A program made the position numbers and the translations under genes. The notes beneath the pieces are model-generated. The model ran no database searches, was not told where the DNA came from, and was given only the letters and a program-made list of their open reading frames with translations. This document shows positions 27-10,261 of a stretch of 10,261 nucleotides of DNA, one piece after another. The DNA lies in assembly GCA_946645735.1 (NCBI GenBank), contig CAMPCK010000011.1, forward strand, positions 1 through 10,261, in the 5' to 3' direction. Position 1 is the first letter of the stretch. Every line of letters begins with the position of its first letter. This DNA is from an uncultured Clostridia bacterium (GTDB lineage: Bacteria > Bacillota_A > Clostridia > Peptostreptococcales > Anaerovoracaceae).

Positions 27-56
27 AAAAAGTCACGAGCTGCCTCGTGACTTTTT
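27..56 (-). terminator. Rho-independent terminator of the murT-gatD operon
   Basis: A near-perfect hairpin begins almost directly after the gatD-like stop codon. The arms at 27-39 and 44-56 are fully complementary (13 bp, including the A/T ends) around a 4-nt loop. The core stem is GTCACGAG/CTCGTGAC. Read on the minus strand it ends in a run of five T. Because it also has T-rich flanks in the other direction, it could stop transcription arriving from the left as well. Confidence 0.9.
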
Positions 57-58
57 CT

Positions 59-817
59 TTAATAGATGTAATTCAGTTTGTCTCTTCTGAACTCTTCAAG
101 CCTCTGCTCATAGGCTCCCATGGCTGCTCCCATGTGAGGCGGATTGATGGTGGTCTCACCGCACTGTATGAGAAGCCTTATCATGAGTTTGGGATTCAGC
201 ACCAGAAGAGGTCCTGTGAGATAGGTTCCCATGAAGTTCTTGTAGTGGATGCCCTCTCCCATGGAGCTCTTGTCGAATCCGGGCCCTTTAACTGTCTGGA
301 ACAGTTCAGGATATACTGCGATGGGCTCTGCATAGGTGAACACACTTTTGAAACCGACTACGTCCAGATCTTCATATTTTCCGAGATACAGGGAGTTCAG
401 TCTGTGCATGACCTCTCTCTTGATCCTGATATCAAAGATTCCGAGGCACTTAGTGGTCTTGGTTTCGGGATCCACTCTTTCGGGAAAGCGGTTAATGGGC
501 ATATCGTCAAGATCCTTTATGTCTTTGCAGAAAAGTTCAAAGGCATTTCCTGTCATAAGAAATCTCTGTCCCCTCTCAATGGCAGACTTGATTTCGTCCT
601 TATAGGGCTCCAGGTGATCCATGGCTACCAGCTGATTATTCTCAGTCATGGTTCCCATGTAGACCAGATCGATATCGTCTCTTCTTAAAAACGCCGGCTT
701 AGTGTTTAAGTCCGTTCCGATTATTTTGCAGGAAGGAATAGACGCCTTGATATATTTGATGTTGGCCAGGTCTCCGAAAAGATTGGCAATTTCAGGGTAA
801 AGAATTTCAATTATCAT
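59..817 (-). CDS. gatD: GatD-like type 1 glutamine amidotransferase subunit, catalytic residues missing
   Basis: The 252-residue product matches the class I glutamine amidotransferase subunit GatD of lipid II isoglutaminyl synthase (S. aureus GatD is about 243 residues). GatD normally hydrolyses glutamine and passes ammonia to MurT. The family framework is clear: an N-terminal strand and helix with DLANI (residues 16-20), the sheet-end motif around YMGTMTENNQL (53-63), LGIFDI (125-130), and EGIHYKNFMGTYL (188-200) near the C-terminus. However, the nucleophile elbow, ICGGYQ in S. aureus, reads MTGNAF, so Thr89 replaces the catalytic Cys. The catalytic His of GTYLHGP is Thr201 in GTYLTGP. Both codons were confirmed on the DNA (ACA at 553-551 and at 217-215). 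The conserved GFENHGG segment is GFKSVFT (155-161). A perfect AGGAGG (830-825) lies in the 3' end of murT, 7 nt before this ATG, and only 2 nt separate the genes, so translation is coupled. It probably pairs with the MurT-like protein as a structural or regulatory subunit. Glutaminase activity looks unlikely. Confidence 0.85.
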   Translation of the reverse strand: MIIEILYPEIANLFGDLANIKYIKASIPSCKIIGTDLNTKPAFLRRDDIDLVYMGTMTENNQLVAMDHLEPYKDEIKSAIERGQRFLMTGNAFELFCKDIKDLDDMPINRFPERVDPETKTTKCLGIFDIRIKREVMHRLNSLYLGKYEDLDVVGFKSVFTYAEPIAVYPELFQTVKGPGFDKSSMGEGIHYKNFMGTYLTGPLLVLNPKLMIRLLIQCGETTINPPHMGAAMGAYEQRLEEFRRDKLNYIY

Positions 818-819
818 GA

Positions 820-2268
820 TTATGCCTCCTCTTCTTCAACTTCATCTTCGGGAACCGCTGCGGTCTCGCTTTCTGCAGGAACAGCAGGAGTCTCGATCTT
901 TGTTCTCAGCATCTGAGCCAGTTCCTTGGCCTGCTTGTTTCCAAGGGCAAAGGATCCTGGGTCAGCACCGTAGAGCACATAGTAGTTCATATCCGGAAGG
1001 ACATCGACCTGCTTGATGGCATCTTCGGCTTTCATGACGTGGACGATCTTCTCTTCGGGGATGCCCGCAAAGAGCATTCTCAGCTTGTAGTCCAGTCCGC
1101 GGTCTCCGAATACCACGATCTTCTTTATGGAATCGACGTTCAGAGTCTCAAAATCCGTATCATAGATCCAGCTTATATTCTCTGACCAGTGAGCTGCCAT
1201 GCCAAGATCGTTTATAAACATTATGAGTTCCTTGTCTCCCGGCTGTTCAACGATGGTCTCGTATACGCGGGATTCAGCAAAGGCATTGAGGCCCTTTCCG
1301 AGAACGTTGTAAACCTTCATGGATCCGACGGTTTCATGGTTGAATCTTGTCTTTACCACCTCGACCTTTGAAAGGTTCTCCTTGATCTCTTCTATGGAAT
1401 ATCCCAGCTGGATGAGAAGGGTAACGAGAGCCATCTCGTTATACAGATTAACGATACGTTCGTCGATAATGGGAAGCTCTGTCTCGAAGCCCGGTCCGCG
1501 GTAGGTGAAGGTCATGTTCTTCATATCGACGTTTCCTGCGCTGTAATCGTAATCCGGCGAACCGAAATCGCAGTTCACGCAGTGAGCACGTCCGATATTG
1601 GAATATCTTCTGTATTCATATTTTATCTTATGATCGCACTTGGGGCAGATCTGTATGTCGTTTATGAGGTTTCTGCATTCAACCGTATCCGTGGGGAGTT
1701 TCTCGATACCGAAATATACCCTTTCGTTTTCGGGAAGCATATAGCAGGAGGTCAGGTCATCTGCATTGAGCACAAGCTTAGTGGTCTTTGGCACATACTT
1801 TTCAAGAAGCCATCTGATGTATTCCGGATGAGCATTTCTCATGATGGAGTCCCTTGAAAGGTTGTTAATGATCATGAAGTCCGGCTTGACATAGGGGAAA
1901 AGCCTTGCAGCAGACCTCTCATCCATCTCAAGCACAGCTGTGTCATATTTTTCTTTATTAAAAATATTCACGCCGTTAATGAGTGCTGATGAGATACCGC
2001 TGTTGATGTTTGATCCTCTTGAATTGTTCAGAGTCTCAACTCCGAAGCCCTTAAGCATATCGATTATGAGATTTGCCGTACTGGTCTTACCGTTGGTGCC
2101 GGTAACCCCGATGACCCTCTTGGGTTTGGCAACGTACTTAAGGAAATCCGGGCAGATCTTAAGAGCCACCACACCCGGGAAGTCCGTAGCATTGTGGCCG
2201 GTTATCTTAAGAGCCGGTATGGAAAGTTTCGCAATAATCAGCGCAATAAAAAATCTGAATTTCATCAT
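820..2268 (-). CDS. murT: MurT-like Mur ligase subunit (lipid II isoglutaminyl synthase family)
   Basis: This 482-residue protein has the MurT architecture: an N-terminal segment with the PG-x-ALK element (31-37), a Mur-ligase central domain with Walker A GTNGKTS (57-63) and EMDERSAARL (114-123), a four-Cys zinc ribbon (C208, C211, C230, C233), and a C-terminal DUF1727-type domain. MurT uses ATP to activate the glutamate of the lipid II stem peptide and amidates it with ammonia from GatD. Several C-terminal motifs deviate. The family NPAG motif is shortened to GKGLN (324-328). The ADGRD-x-SWIYD segment, whose Asp completes the GatD triad, reads SENISWIYD (362-370), placing Asn364 there (AAT at 1179-1177). 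The usual YTSL/YTAML motif near the end is replaced by YGADPGS (433-439). An acidic tail ends in EVEEEEA and follows the folded region from about residue 460. The ATG has an upstream GGAG 8 nt away. It is first in a two-gene operon with the gatD-like gene. Confidence 0.88.
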   Translation of the reverse strand: MMKFRFFIALIIAKLSIPALKITGHNATDFPGVVALKICPDFLKYVAKPKRVIGVTGTNGKTSTANLIIDMLKGFGVETLNNSRGSNINSGISSALINGVNIFNKEKYDTAVLEMDERSAARLFPYVKPDFMIINNLSRDSIMRNAHPEYIRWLLEKYVPKTTKLVLNADDLTSCYMLPENERVYFGIEKLPTDTVECRNLINDIQICPKCDHKIKYEYRRYSNIGRAHCVNCDFGSPDYDYSAGNVDMKNMTFTYRGPGFETELPIIDERIVNLYNEMALVTLLIQLGYSIEEIKENLSKVEVVKTRFNHETVGSMKVYNVLGKGLNAFAESRVYETIVEQPGDKELIMFINDLGMAAHWSENISWIYDTDFETLNVDSIKKIVVFGDRGLDYKLRMLFAGIPEEKIVHVMKAEDAIKQVDVLPDMNYYVLYGADPGSFALGNKQAKELAQMLRTKIETPAVPAESETAAVPEDEVEEEEA

Positions 2269-2306: not shown

Positions 2307-2335
2307 ATTATAGCATAATGTTCCTCTCAGTTCAA
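2307..2335 (-). promoter_or_regulatory. Predicted sigma-A promoter of murT-gatD
   Basis: On the minus strand a -35 element TTGAAC (2335-2330) is followed after 17 nt by a perfect -10 TATAAT (2312-2307). The -10 is preceded by TG one base upstream (TGCTATAAT), an extended -10. The start site would be near 2300, giving a leader of about 30 nt before the murT ATG. The gap between the LURP-one gene and murT shows no convincing terminator, so readthrough from the upstream operon may add to expression. Confidence 0.72.
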
Positions 2336-2345
2336 TTATAGGGAA

Positions 2346-2837
2346 TTATTTCTCGCTGGCGTTTTGGGGTTTGACCTGCTGATCCATCTCGCTTACCAGA
2401 TAGAGTGCCACAGCAGCCAGAGCCTTGCCGGGGTCCTTTACATCAAGTTTCAGAGTCTCCCCGAAAGAAAGCCTTTTGGGTCTTAAATGCGCAGCCGTGT
2501 GAAGGCCTTCCATGATCTTAAGATCTTTCTTGCCGAAGTCTCCCTTAAGGGTCCAGCCCAGCTGCTTTGCGCGGTATTCAGGCACCTTTCTCATGGTATC
2601 GATCCTGAAGACTTCCACCTCTTCCGCGTTTTTCATATCTATAATATATTTCTCTCTTAAGGCGATCTTCTTTTTGTAGACGGAAGCAAGTTCGTGACCT
2701 GAAGGGTCATTTATTCTCAGACGCTTTCCTACGGAGACGAGTTCCCCTTTAACGTTAAATACGACGTTTCCCTTTTCGTCTGTCACTTCATAAGTGTCGA
2801 GGACCGTGAGTTTTGCTTTTTTGATAATGAGTTCCAT
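2346..2837 (-). CDS. LURP-one-related (YxjI/tubby-like fold) protein
   Basis: This 163-residue protein fits the LURP-one-related family (DUF567; B. subtilis YxjI type), which has the beta-barrel-plus-helix fold shared with tubby C-terminal and scramblase-like domains. The pattern is visible: an initial ELIIKKAKL strand, the TYEVTDEKGNVVFNVKG repeat (15-31), the KRLRINDPSGHELASVYKKK stretch (38-57), alternating short strands through about residue 110, then a hydrophobic C-terminal helix (KALAAVALYLVSEMDQQ, 138-154) characteristic of the family. No enzyme motif or signal peptide is present, and the molecular role of bacterial members is not established; membrane or lipid association is only suggested by the fold. 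It is third in an operon, 20 nt after the alkD-like gene, with AGGAG 8 nt before the ATG. No clear terminator follows. Confidence 0.82.
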   Translation of the reverse strand: MELIIKKAKLTVLDTYEVTDEKGNVVFNVKGELVSVGKRLRINDPSGHELASVYKKKIALREKYIIDMKNAEEVEVFRIDTMRKVPEYRAKQLGWTLKGDFGKKDLKIMEGLHTAAHLRPKRLSFGETLKLDVKDPGKALAAVALYLVSEMDQQVKPQNASEK

Positions 2838-8198: not shown

Positions 8199-9287
8199 TT
8201 ATTTATATGCCTTCTCCACATATTTGGAGGTCGCAAGTTTAAGAACTGCGCCATATTCCAGCTTGAAGCTTACAACATCTCCTACCTTGTACTCCTTGTC
8301 GGACTTGGTTACATCCAGAAGAGTATGGTCTGAGGACCCTCCGAGAATGTCGATCTTTTCATCAAGCGGGATCATGCCGCCAAGATCGGTATCCTGCTTG
8401 CCTACAGCGATGATGGCGCGCTTGATGATTCCGCGGTCCTCATACTCAGGCTTTTCTCCGAAGGCGTCTACGCCTACCTCTCCGATAGGAATGGAGGGCT
8501 TCTCTTTAAGCTCAACAATCTGAGCTTCGAGGATGATGGCATCATCTCTTGTTCCGGGAAGCTTAGTGAGATATGCGGTATCATTTCCGAGAAGGAAGGA
8601 TTCACCCAGTCTTAAGTTGGTGATTCCCTCGGGGAGTTCCTTCTTCTCTGCAAGGTAGATGGAGGAGGAATTTCCGCCTGAAACCATCTTAAGTCTGATT
8701 CCGAATCTTTCTTCTATCTTCCGTGCTATCTCTACCAGTCCGCCGAGGTTGTCCTGCTTGGGGATTATGGCTCCGTAGCAGGTCAGGTTTACACCGACTC
8801 CGTAGAGCTCAATGTTTGACATGCCGAGGATCTCCTCAACTGTCTCCATAATGGTATCTTCATTCCTGAAGAAGATCCCCTCTCTCAGGTCTCCCATATC
8901 GATCATAAGAAGGATGGAATGAGTCTTCCCGGCCTGTTTTGCAGCTTCATTCAGAAGTCTTATGGTGGAAAGCTCTGAATTGAAGCTTAAGTCTACATAT
9001 TTGACAACATCTTCAACTTCACAGTGCATGGGTATTCTTAAGAGACAGGTCTTCTTAAGATGCTCGTGAGCCATATCGCAGTATGATGCTATGTTCATGA
9101 CTCTGGAGTCTGCCAGAAAATCAACCATGGGATGTTCGCAGATCACACGGCTTATGGCAGGATCTGCACAGAGGCACTTGGTTACGATCATCATGGAATC
9201 GCAGCCGCCCTCTTCCTTTGTGATATGAGCTACGGCATCGAGATTGGCCTTAAGGCCTGCCCTGTCCATTACAAGTCTGGGATACAT
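8199..9287 (-). CDS. orr: Ornithine racemase, PLP-dependent, alanine racemase-like fold
   Basis: The 362-residue product is a fold-type III PLP enzyme that closely resembles clostridial ornithine racemase Orr, which converts L-ornithine to D-ornithine in the oxidative ornithine fermentation pathway. Seen in order: MYPRLVMDRAGL at the start, the PLP lysine K37 in MIVTKCLC, FLADSR (57-62), LLRIPMHCEVEDVVKY (82-97), the GVNLTCYGAIIPKQDNL segment (165-181), the phosphate-binding SGGNSSSIYL (203-212), NLRLGESFLLG (224-234) and IVELKEKPSIPIGEVGVDAFG (257-277). The reading frame is open further upstream, to an ATG at 9392 inside the preceding gene, but the ATG at 9287 is preferred: it begins the conserved N-terminus and has AAGGAG 6 nt upstream. 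It follows the GlmL-like gene by 47 nt with no promoter between, so they form one operon. Alanine or another amino-acid racemase activity is a less likely alternative. Confidence 0.88.
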   Translation of the reverse strand: MYPRLVMDRAGLKANLDAVAHITKEEGGCDSMMIVTKCLCADPAISRVICEHPMVDFLADSRVMNIASYCDMAHEHLKKTCLLRIPMHCEVEDVVKYVDLSFNSELSTIRLLNEAAKQAGKTHSILLMIDMGDLREGIFFRNEDTIMETVEEILGMSNIELYGVGVNLTCYGAIIPKQDNLGGLVEIARKIEERFGIRLKMVSGGNSSSIYLAEKKELPEGITNLRLGESFLLGNDTAYLTKLPGTRDDAIILEAQIVELKEKPSIPIGEVGVDAFGEKPEYEDRGIIKRAIIAVGKQDTDLGGMIPLDEKIDILGGSSDHTLLDVTKSDKEYKVGDVVSFKLEYGAVLKLATSKYVEKAYK

Positions 9288-9334
9288 TTTTTCTCCTTCC
9301 TGTCCGGGGTTTCCCGGAAACCTTTCATCATATA

Positions 9335-10261
9335 TTAATCTTCGTAGTTGGTGTTTCTCCATCTGCAGTGAGTGCGGTAGCAGAGTTTGCACTTTCTGTC
9401 GCAGCCGGGCTTGCGTTTATTGGGATCGTAATCGACCTCTTCGCCGTCTGCCGCCTGTGTTCCGTGATGCCTGTCTATTCCGTCCATGGCATCCTGTGCC
9501 GCCTTATATGCTTCTGAAGGGCTCATGCCTTCAGTGTCCGGCTTGGCTATGCTCTCAGCCATGGCGTCCTTTGCGGTCCTCATGGAGCGGTCGTTCATAA
9601 GAGCTTCCTTCTTAGCAGCTTCCACTTCTTCCTTGGTTGCACCGCCGATGTTACCCTTTAGGGATTCCTTATACTCGGTCAGGTCGTAGCCCATGTCTTC
9701 CATCTCTTTGATGTGCTGCTGAAGTTCTTCCTGCTTTTCCTTATCAGCTTTAGCCAGGGACTGTAGTTCCTTTATGAACTTATCCTTCTGGATCTCTTCG
9801 TGGCGTTCATGGAGTTCGATCCCGAGGGACTGGCCGAGGAGTTTGATGGCTCCCTGTCTGTGTGTCTTGGAAAGGACGCCCAGGGATGCCATGATGTAGT
9901 CGTTATCGACCAGGATCTTCACGGCGTCCGACGGGTAGAGCTTCATCCCGGTCTCGTTATCCTTAGGGATGAGCTTCATTATATCCACCCTGTGAGGCAG
10001 CCTGGTAAGGGCTCCGCCTGTTCCAACGATGTATTTGATCTGAGTGAGGTCCTTACCTTCAGCAACGGTGGACCTTCCGGAAGGTCCGTACACGTAGCGG
10101 ATGGATCCCGCGTGTCTTTCGACAGCTCTCAGGGTCGCTTCCTCGCAGAGTCTCTCCACGAGTTTGAATTCATTTTCTTTCTTGGGTATCGCCACGTAGG
10201 TCGAGAGGGTATCGTCAAGGTCGATATGAAGTTTTTCATCGCATTCTTTTCTGAGCTTCTC
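9335..10261 (-). CDS. GlmL/MutL-related ATPase of ornithine degradation (5' end outside the window)
   Basis: The frame is open to the right edge, so the N-terminus is missing; 308 C-terminal residues are visible. A GTG at 10195 is an internal valine codon, since similarity continues upstream of it. Visible residues 35 to about 148 match the C-terminal half of GlmL/MutL, the ASKHA-type ATPase accessory protein of B12-dependent glutamate mutase: EATLRAVERHAG (41-52), YGPSGRSTVAEGKDL (58-72), KYIVGTGGALTRLP (76-89), DYIMASLGVLS (121-131) and a closing KLLGQSLGI (140-148). Standard GlmL ends about here. This protein continues for about 160 residues: a charged helical, probably coiled-coil stretch (about 150-205), an Ala/Met-rich part, and a basic Cys-rich end with C287-x3-C291-x2-C294-x4-C299. 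Next to orr it is probably the reactivating or assembly factor for D-ornithine 4,5-aminomutase (OraS/OraE); that role is inferred from context. Confidence 0.85.
   Translation of the reverse strand, partial: EKLRKECDEKLHIDLDDTLSTYVAIPKKENEFKLVERLCEEATLRAVERHAGSIRYVYGPSGRSTVAEGKDLTQIKYIVGTGGALTRLPHRVDIMKLIPKDNETGMKLYPSDAVKILVDNDYIMASLGVLSKTHRQGAIKLLGQSLGIELHERHEEIQKDKFIKELQSLAKADKEKQEELQQHIKEMEDMGYDLTEYKESLKGNIGGATKEEVEAAKKEALMNDRSMRTAKDAMAESIAKPDTEGMSPSEAYKAAQDAMDGIDRHHGTQAADGEEVDYDPNKRKPGCDRKCKLCYRTHCRWRNTNYED

Follow-up and report, generated by a model that had tools for sequence, protein, structure and literature searches.

We report that a gatD-like gene of an uncultured Clostridia bacterium, carried on a stretch of 10,261 nucleotides (the window, by which we mean the whole stretch that was analysed), encodes a protein that keeps the fold of a class I glutamine amidotransferase (GatD) and that, as the alignments show, is predicted to be no longer a glutaminase: the catalytic Cys and His and the Asp contributed by its partner MurT have all been lost. 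As judged from sequences, such pairs form a conserved clade that is spread over many gut and rumen bacteria and is not the product of decay. Our best explanation, at a probability of roughly 0.48, is that the pair is a Mur-type ligase that uses an amino acid in place of ammonia from glutamine and joins it to D-Glu, with GatD as a structural subunit. A more specific and more tentative proposal is that MurT and the glutaminase-dead (below, dead) GatD might be the missing ligase of group B peptidoglycan. In this proposal the ligase would start the bridge by adding its first amino acid, which in Eubacteriaceae would be D-ornithine or D-lysine and in other groups a different one, to the alpha-carboxyl of D-Glu; its ancestor would be the amidase by which this carboxyl is ordinarily blocked. 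The group B cell-wall class was defined in the 1970s; if the proposal is true, there is now a candidate for the enzyme that makes its defining bond, and genomes could be used to predict which wall type an uncultured gut bacterium has. Database names for these proteins, where there are any, are glutamine amidotransferase, CobQ-like or hypothetical, and current annotation hides the loss of the glutaminase.

The gene pair and its active-site residues

The features of the window that bear on the pair are as follows.

27..56, minus strand: 13-bp hairpin directly 3' of gatD, its 3' arm ending in U's (-18.7 kcal/mol, z -5.1)
59..817, minus strand: gatD-like gene, glutaminase-dead, 252 aa (intact ORF of 252 codons)
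215..217, minus strand: Thr201 codon, position of catalytic His189 (phmmer and MAFFT)
401..403, minus strand: Arg139 codon, position of the glutamine-holding Arg128, kept (MAFFT; phmmer places it one residue away)
548..550, minus strand: Gly90 codon, position of catalytic Cys94 (phmmer and MAFFT; Gly in all other 115 clade members)
551..553, minus strand: Thr89 codon, position of S. aureus Ile93 (phmmer and MAFFT; Thr in 94% of the clade)
820..2268, minus strand: murT-like gene, 482 aa, with Mur ligase middle and MurT_C domains
1177..1179, minus strand: Asn364 codon, position of the triad Asp349 of MurT (alignment with S. aureus MurT)
1570..1647, minus strand: Cys4 zinc ribbon of MurT (C208, C211, C230, C233), kept (invariant in an alignment, A2, of 32)
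2083..2100, minus strand: GTNGKT ATP-binding loop of MurT, kept (sequence and MurT alignment)
2307..2335, minus strand: putative sigma-70-like promoter upstream of murT (consensus scan only; 10/12, TG preceding the second hexamer)

The two genes form a minus-strand unit with murT upstream and gatD downstream, and two bases separate the murT stop codon from the gatD start (ATG at 817), in agreement with the intact gatD beside murT of the preliminary description. The hairpin at 27..56 is the likely transcription end; it is absent from the output of a terminator scan of the window. Upstream of murT there are a LURP-one-related gene (2346-2837, minus strand), a DNA alkylation repair gene, an aldo/keto reductase and a cation/proton antiporter, and an alpha/beta hydrolase lies on the opposite strand in the upstream region of the window. 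A homologue of the LURP-one-related gene also precedes murT, with shared strand, in L001-L004. Farther upstream, at 8199-10261 (minus strand), are a gene for the ornithine racemase Orr (504.7 bits, above the cut-off) and the end portion of a GlmL-related ornithine degradation gene; the host therefore probably ferments D-ornithine.

The MurT-like protein passed the Pfam cut-offs for both Mur ligase middle (37.8 bits, cut-off 24) and MurT_C (76.5 bits, cut-off 25), and scored 153.2 and 169.5 bits with the NCBIfam MurT models, below the 800-bit cut-off. The GatD-like protein stayed below the cut-offs of NCBIfam GatD (47.4 and 56.1 bits, cut-offs 400 and 450) and of Pfam GATase_3 (21 bits, cut-off 27).

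Residue columns were taken from a phmmer search against the PDB (S. aureus GatD) and from a joint MAFFT alignment of 203 GatD proteins and the window. The phmmer alignment with S. aureus GatD is gapless across the nucleophile elbow and MAFFT yields identical columns. The preliminary description had recognised a GatD homologue without the glutaminase Cys and His, and both alignments bear this out, including its placing of Thr201 at the position of His189. It took Thr89 as the replacement of the Cys, which is off by one, as Cys94 corresponds to Gly90 and Thr89 to Ile93; the absence of a nucleophile is unaffected. Among the 120 homologues listed of 209 matches, the Cys column is Gly in every one, the elbow is TGN in 116 proteins and IGN in 4, and the His column holds Ile (60), Thr (32), Leu (22), Gln (2), Met (1), Val (1) or a gap (2) and in no case His. 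The losses are therefore due neither to chance nor to sequencing error, the latter having been named beforehand as one way in which they might be explained away. In the other 115 members of the clade described below, the His189 column is Ile in 60, Leu in 38, Thr in 13, Val in 2, and Asn and Ser in one each.

According to passages in PMC5871853, G60 and G95 of S. aureus GatD form the oxyanion hole and R128 holds the glutamine. Both glycines are lost in the window GatD (Gly60 to Thr56, Gly95 to Asn91), and in the MAFFT alignment the Arg128 position is Arg in 93% of clade members and in 98% of the canonical GatD proteins. A replacement active site was looked for, and no Cys or His was conserved at 90% or more across the clade; this covers C97 and H191, which had been suggested as residues that might form a working site.

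The third residue of the triad has been placed in MurT: parts of PMC6113224 propose S. aureus Asp349 and state that D349N abolishes catalysis, as C94S or C94G do. The corresponding column is Asn in 75/81 MurT rows from the best 80 loci (see below) and, across the whole clade, Asn in 85/115 and Asp in 6. For S. pneumoniae GatD another third residue, Asp32 (S. aureus residue 19), is named in a portion of PMC6085368; its column is Asp16 in the window GatD and is kept. The ligase part of MurT is well preserved, as the ATP-site residues T60, E108 and N267 are present in the window and the MurT proteins of the best 80 loci (79 sequences) show approximately 97-100% conservation of GTNGKT, E108, D110/E111, N267, R298, K315 and the zinc Cys. 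The MurT loop FRDQ(L/M)DR(F/Y)GE, on the other hand, is altered in most of the clade and the DNAAD region also shows clade-wide changes; the altered loop hints at a changed acceptor or amine site.

Distribution, phylogeny and selection

A scan of species genomes gave at least 566 relatives, of which the best 80 loci, a sample picked by likeness to the query, were kept. The murT gene is directly upstream of gatD in 79 of these 80, the exception (L033) lying at a contig edge. As a control for the bias of this sample, 196 genomes were sampled evenly within one class, and 105 of them had matches. The loci of these matches were retrieved with the exception of a single short one, and of the 107 class loci, 106 were classified: 72 have both Cys and His, 22 have neither, eight have His only (among them L234, whose match is weak and lies in a long frame) and four have Cys only.

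For the joint set of 203 GatD proteins (window excluded), the residue at the Asp349 column of the partner MurT was tabulated. Where GatD has Cys and His (n=72), 68 of the MurT partners have Asp, 1 has another residue and 3 could not be scored; where GatD has neither (n=119), the figures are 9, 109 and 1. The partners of the eight His-only proteins have Asp in 5 and could not be scored in 3, and those of the four Cys-only proteins all have Asp. Residue loss in GatD and in MurT thus goes together, in a set that leans to relatives of the window and whose sequences are not independent.

In trees computed without the three tested columns, 116 pairs, including those of the window and of Acetobacterium woodii, fall in one clade; its support is modest (0.62 for the concatenated proteins, 0.97 for GatD and 0.82 for MurT), and labels may move by one branch on rerooting. 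The preliminary description asked whether homologues sharing Thr at both positions form a clade; there is indeed one clade, and its members have Gly at the Cys column and mainly Ile, Leu or Thr at the His column. Relative to L001-L004, the nearest relatives, dN/dS is 0.03-0.08 for gatD, with dS close to saturation, and 0.07-0.10 for murT. The earlier suggestion that GatD is kept under selection as a non-glutaminase partner of MurT is thereby upheld by the clade-wide loss of the triad, the kept ligase residues, the murT adjacency and purifying selection relative to the nearest relatives.

Several genomes carry two or three diverged dead pairs. A canonical MurT/GatD was sought elsewhere in 39 dead-pair genomes and none was found; 17 stretches around extra MurT copies were checked, 16 of which have a GatD-like gene, dead in all 16, and the 17th (L127, a match below the Pfam cut-off) has none. 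The second copy in L051 is likewise dead. In a check of further groups with type B walls (Erysipelothrix), both dead and canonical pairs were seen in the order to which G026 belongs.

Besides murT, no gene family occurs near gatD in more than 14 of the best 80 loci. A gene family upstream of murT on the same strand was seen in 11 of the 80 (L015-L018, L026, L027, L035, L041, L045, L048 and L051); its member at 3579-4607 of L015, adjoining murT, is a sugar-transfer-associated ATP-grasp protein (PF14397) and possibly another ligase that acts in this pathway.

Other forms of the pair were also seen. In L153, L168, L173, L187, L197, L230 and L233 the GatD Cys is replaced by Gly or Ser, the His is kept and so is the MurT Asp where a partner was found; these are possibly early stages or separate losses. 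L154, L192 and L196 form a separate small clade without Cys and His in which the MurT Asp is kept, that is, a second loss. A single 697-aa frame in L149 (3-2096) matches both MurT and GatD, has the canonical LHGP motif and is likely a natural MurT-GatD fusion. In G436, G323, G438, G327 and G420 the dead-type GatD matches each carry a flag for a single internal stop.

Racemase genes and group B walls

In group B peptidoglycan the bridge begins at the alpha-carboxyl of D-Glu, which is normally amidated by MurT/GatD. We take the wall of A. woodii to be of type B and that of E. limosum ATCC 8486 to be B2alpha, both presumably with D-ornithine or D-lysine at this carboxyl (Schleifer and Kandler; Guinand and Ghuysen; Kandler and Schoberth). 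The genus Eubacterium is tabled with B2alpha peptidoglycan, beside group A types, in a part of PMC11382707. Within the CC-licensed PMC literature, no paper was found on A. woodii peptidoglycan with D-ornithine and, among the titles listed, none concerned a glutaminase-dead GatD and none a part played by MurT in group B walls.

In A. woodii and in a probable genome of E. limosum ATCC 8486 (G253) there is a single MurT_C match, which belongs to a dead pair; the latter genome has this pair without a canonical MurT/GatD. The A. woodii protein (P0121) is a type 1 glutamine amidotransferase by its database name, and among the 120 proteins listed (P0121 and 119 others) the Cys column is Gly in 119, with one gap, and the His column is Leu in all. 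In the A. woodii family, 40 genomes were searched: full dead pairs are present in 28 (L260-L287), fragments in two (G240 and G250) and canonical pairs in eight (G260-G267). One canonical genome (G266) also has a dead second pair, and in another (G267) a further MurT of the dead type lies on a contig that is cut.

All 28 genomes that have the full dead pair carry a full-length homologue of ornithine racemase (399-447 bits; Orr cut-off 480), against 0/8 canonical genomes. G240 also has the homologue, as does G269, a genome without MurT or GatD matches; G250 and G268 lack it. Fisher's test of 29/30 against 0/8 gives p = 1.8e-7, uncorrected for kinship, and the split could go back to a single evolutionary event or to very few. 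The A. woodii pair lies in a row with an MnmA homologue, glmM and glmS, and the racemase homologue is elsewhere in the genome. Outside this family, murT, dead gatD and a racemase gene (411 bits to Orr) stand in a row in L237, the last two overlapping.

Among the 39 dead-pair genomes a racemase homologue of at least 260 bits is present in 23, several of which have more than one and one of which (G031) counts only by a copy cut at the contig end. Little can be read from this count, since the racemase gene of the window itself is found among genes for ornithine degradation. A full-length homologue is absent from 16/39, and G027, G028, G032 and G038 (labelled Lachnospiraceae or Oscillospiraceae) have none. 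The 196 class genomes were divided into 19 of the dead clade and 177 others for tests uncorrected for kinship. At 350 bits or more, a racemase is present in 6/19 against 22/177 (p 0.035), that is, 13/19 dead-clade genomes have no full-length homologue at this level. For a best match between 350 bits and the Orr cut-off, a range chosen post hoc, the figures are 5/19 against 2/177 (p 9e-5), and 3/17 against 2/177 (p 0.005) when two Eubacteriaceae genomes are removed. Above the Orr cut-off there is no link (1/19 against 20/177, p 0.70). The racemase as a universal partner of the dead pair was rejected, given its presence in 23/39 genomes at 260 bits or more and in 6/19 at 350 bits.

A divergent Orr-like racemase gene was also seen in genomes of the TGN type (loci L302, L303, L305 and L309; L304 partly), between genes of AMP-binding type (by Pfam in L302 and L305) and greA- and lysS-like genes (assigned by eye).

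The proposed reaction and its alternatives

In the reaction that we propose, MurT would still bind ATP and activate a carboxylate as acyl phosphate like other Mur ligases, as the kept residues suggest, and this carboxyl would be that of D-Glu. The amine would be an amino acid (in Eubacteriaceae, D-ornithine or D-lysine) that is linked to D-Glu, residue 2 of the peptidoglycan precursor, through the alpha-carboxyl; this bond would open a cross-bridge of the group B type. GatD might be retained as a structural subunit that completes the pocket on the amine side, and would be kept because MurT needs it, canonical MurT being inactive without GatD even with ammonia.

We favour this ligase because the triad is lost in both subunits of one clade of 116 pairs in which the ATP, Mg and Zn residues of MurT are kept, and because the FRDQ(L/M)DR(F/Y)GE loop has changed in most of that clade. 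It is favoured, moreover, because A. woodii and the probable E. limosum genome have the dead pair only and Eubacterium is tabled as B2alpha, and because of the racemase split in the A. woodii family, the gene row of L237 and the glmM/glmS context in A. woodii. The link to group B walls is a tentative one, drawn from one family, two identified organisms and one operon. Several observations speak against the ligase: the racemase is missing from many dead-pair genomes, and also from G266 and G267, the two canonical genomes with dead-type second copies; no link is seen for racemases that pass the Orr cut-off; Orr can have a part in breaking down ornithine, which is its setting in the window; and the kept Arg128 position could mean that glutamine is still bound.

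The main rival, which we regard as rather unlikely, is an amidase fed by free ammonia, in which MurT makes D-isoglutamine in the manner of carbamoyl phosphate synthetase I (CPS I) and the glutaminase has been lost because the bacteria live in gut and rumen fluid rich in ammonia. In vertebrate CPS I a class I glutaminase part without its nucleophile is retained with the synthetase, which uses free ammonia; here, unlike in CPS I, an amino acid is favoured as the amine. Many of the loci come from rumen and gut assemblies and the window has ornithine-degradation genes, both of which suit free ammonia. Moreover, passages in PMC3266927 describe an S. aureus GatD C94G mutant that has lost glutamine use and keeps ammonia-dependent amidation of lipid II at pH 8.5, with MurT alone never active; at pH 7.5, however, the S. 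aureus enzyme is there stated not to use ammonia. The mutant resembles the present pair in having the same Cys to Gly change, a dead glutaminase and a MurT that still requires GatD; the pair differs in that the change is natural and fixed, and that the His and the MurT Asp349 are lost too. Even as a free-ammonia enzyme, the pair would be nature's parallel to the C94G experiment, one in which a single triad has been lost from two genes. Free ammonia does not, however, predict the multiple diverged dead pairs per genome, the changed MurT loop or the links to the racemase and group B walls. Of the three options in the preliminary description, a different nucleophile has gained indirect support from these last two links, and free ammonia stays with C94G as its precedent.

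It is improbable that the pair is purely regulatory or structural, the complex binding a peptidoglycan precursor or an amino acid with the ligase reaction gone. Pseudo-enzymes that act by binding and not by catalysis are known, and the lost glutaminase residues would suit such a role; a dead ligase, however, would not need the P-loop, E108, D110, E111, N267, R298, K315 and zinc Cys that MurT has kept. Less probable again is another glutaminase active site, or a separate protein that donates ammonia to MurT. The kept Arg128 equivalent would fit it, against which stand the lack of a conserved Cys or His, the loss of both oxyanion-hole glycines in the window and the lack, apart from murT, of a neighbour family in more than 14/80 loci. 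A decaying gene or a sequencing error has nothing in its favour beyond the lost residues and is refuted by Gly at the Cys column in 120/120 and 119/120 (one gap) of the two sets of listed proteins, the intact frame and the low dN/dS of gatD.

Compared with the MurT/GatD lipid II isoglutaminyl synthase of S. aureus, S. pneumoniae and S. pyogenes, the pair has the same adjacent genes, folds, MurT ATP and zinc sites and GatD Arg128; it differs in the residues at Cys94 (Gly), His189 (Thr, Ile or Leu) and MurT Asp349 (Asn or other), in the lost oxyanion glycines and in the changed FRDQxDRxGE loop. The Mur ligases MurD and MurE carry out ATP-dependent joining of amino acids to a peptidoglycan carboxylate, using UDP precursors, making other bonds and having no GatD partner; they share the chemistry proposed for the pair, which differs in having such a partner. 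A MurT relative without a working GatD is also seen in Methanopyrales and Methanobacteriales, where, according to a part of PMC11915815, species bearing only that MurT-like protein have no GatD homologue; in the pairs described here, unlike there, GatD has been kept.
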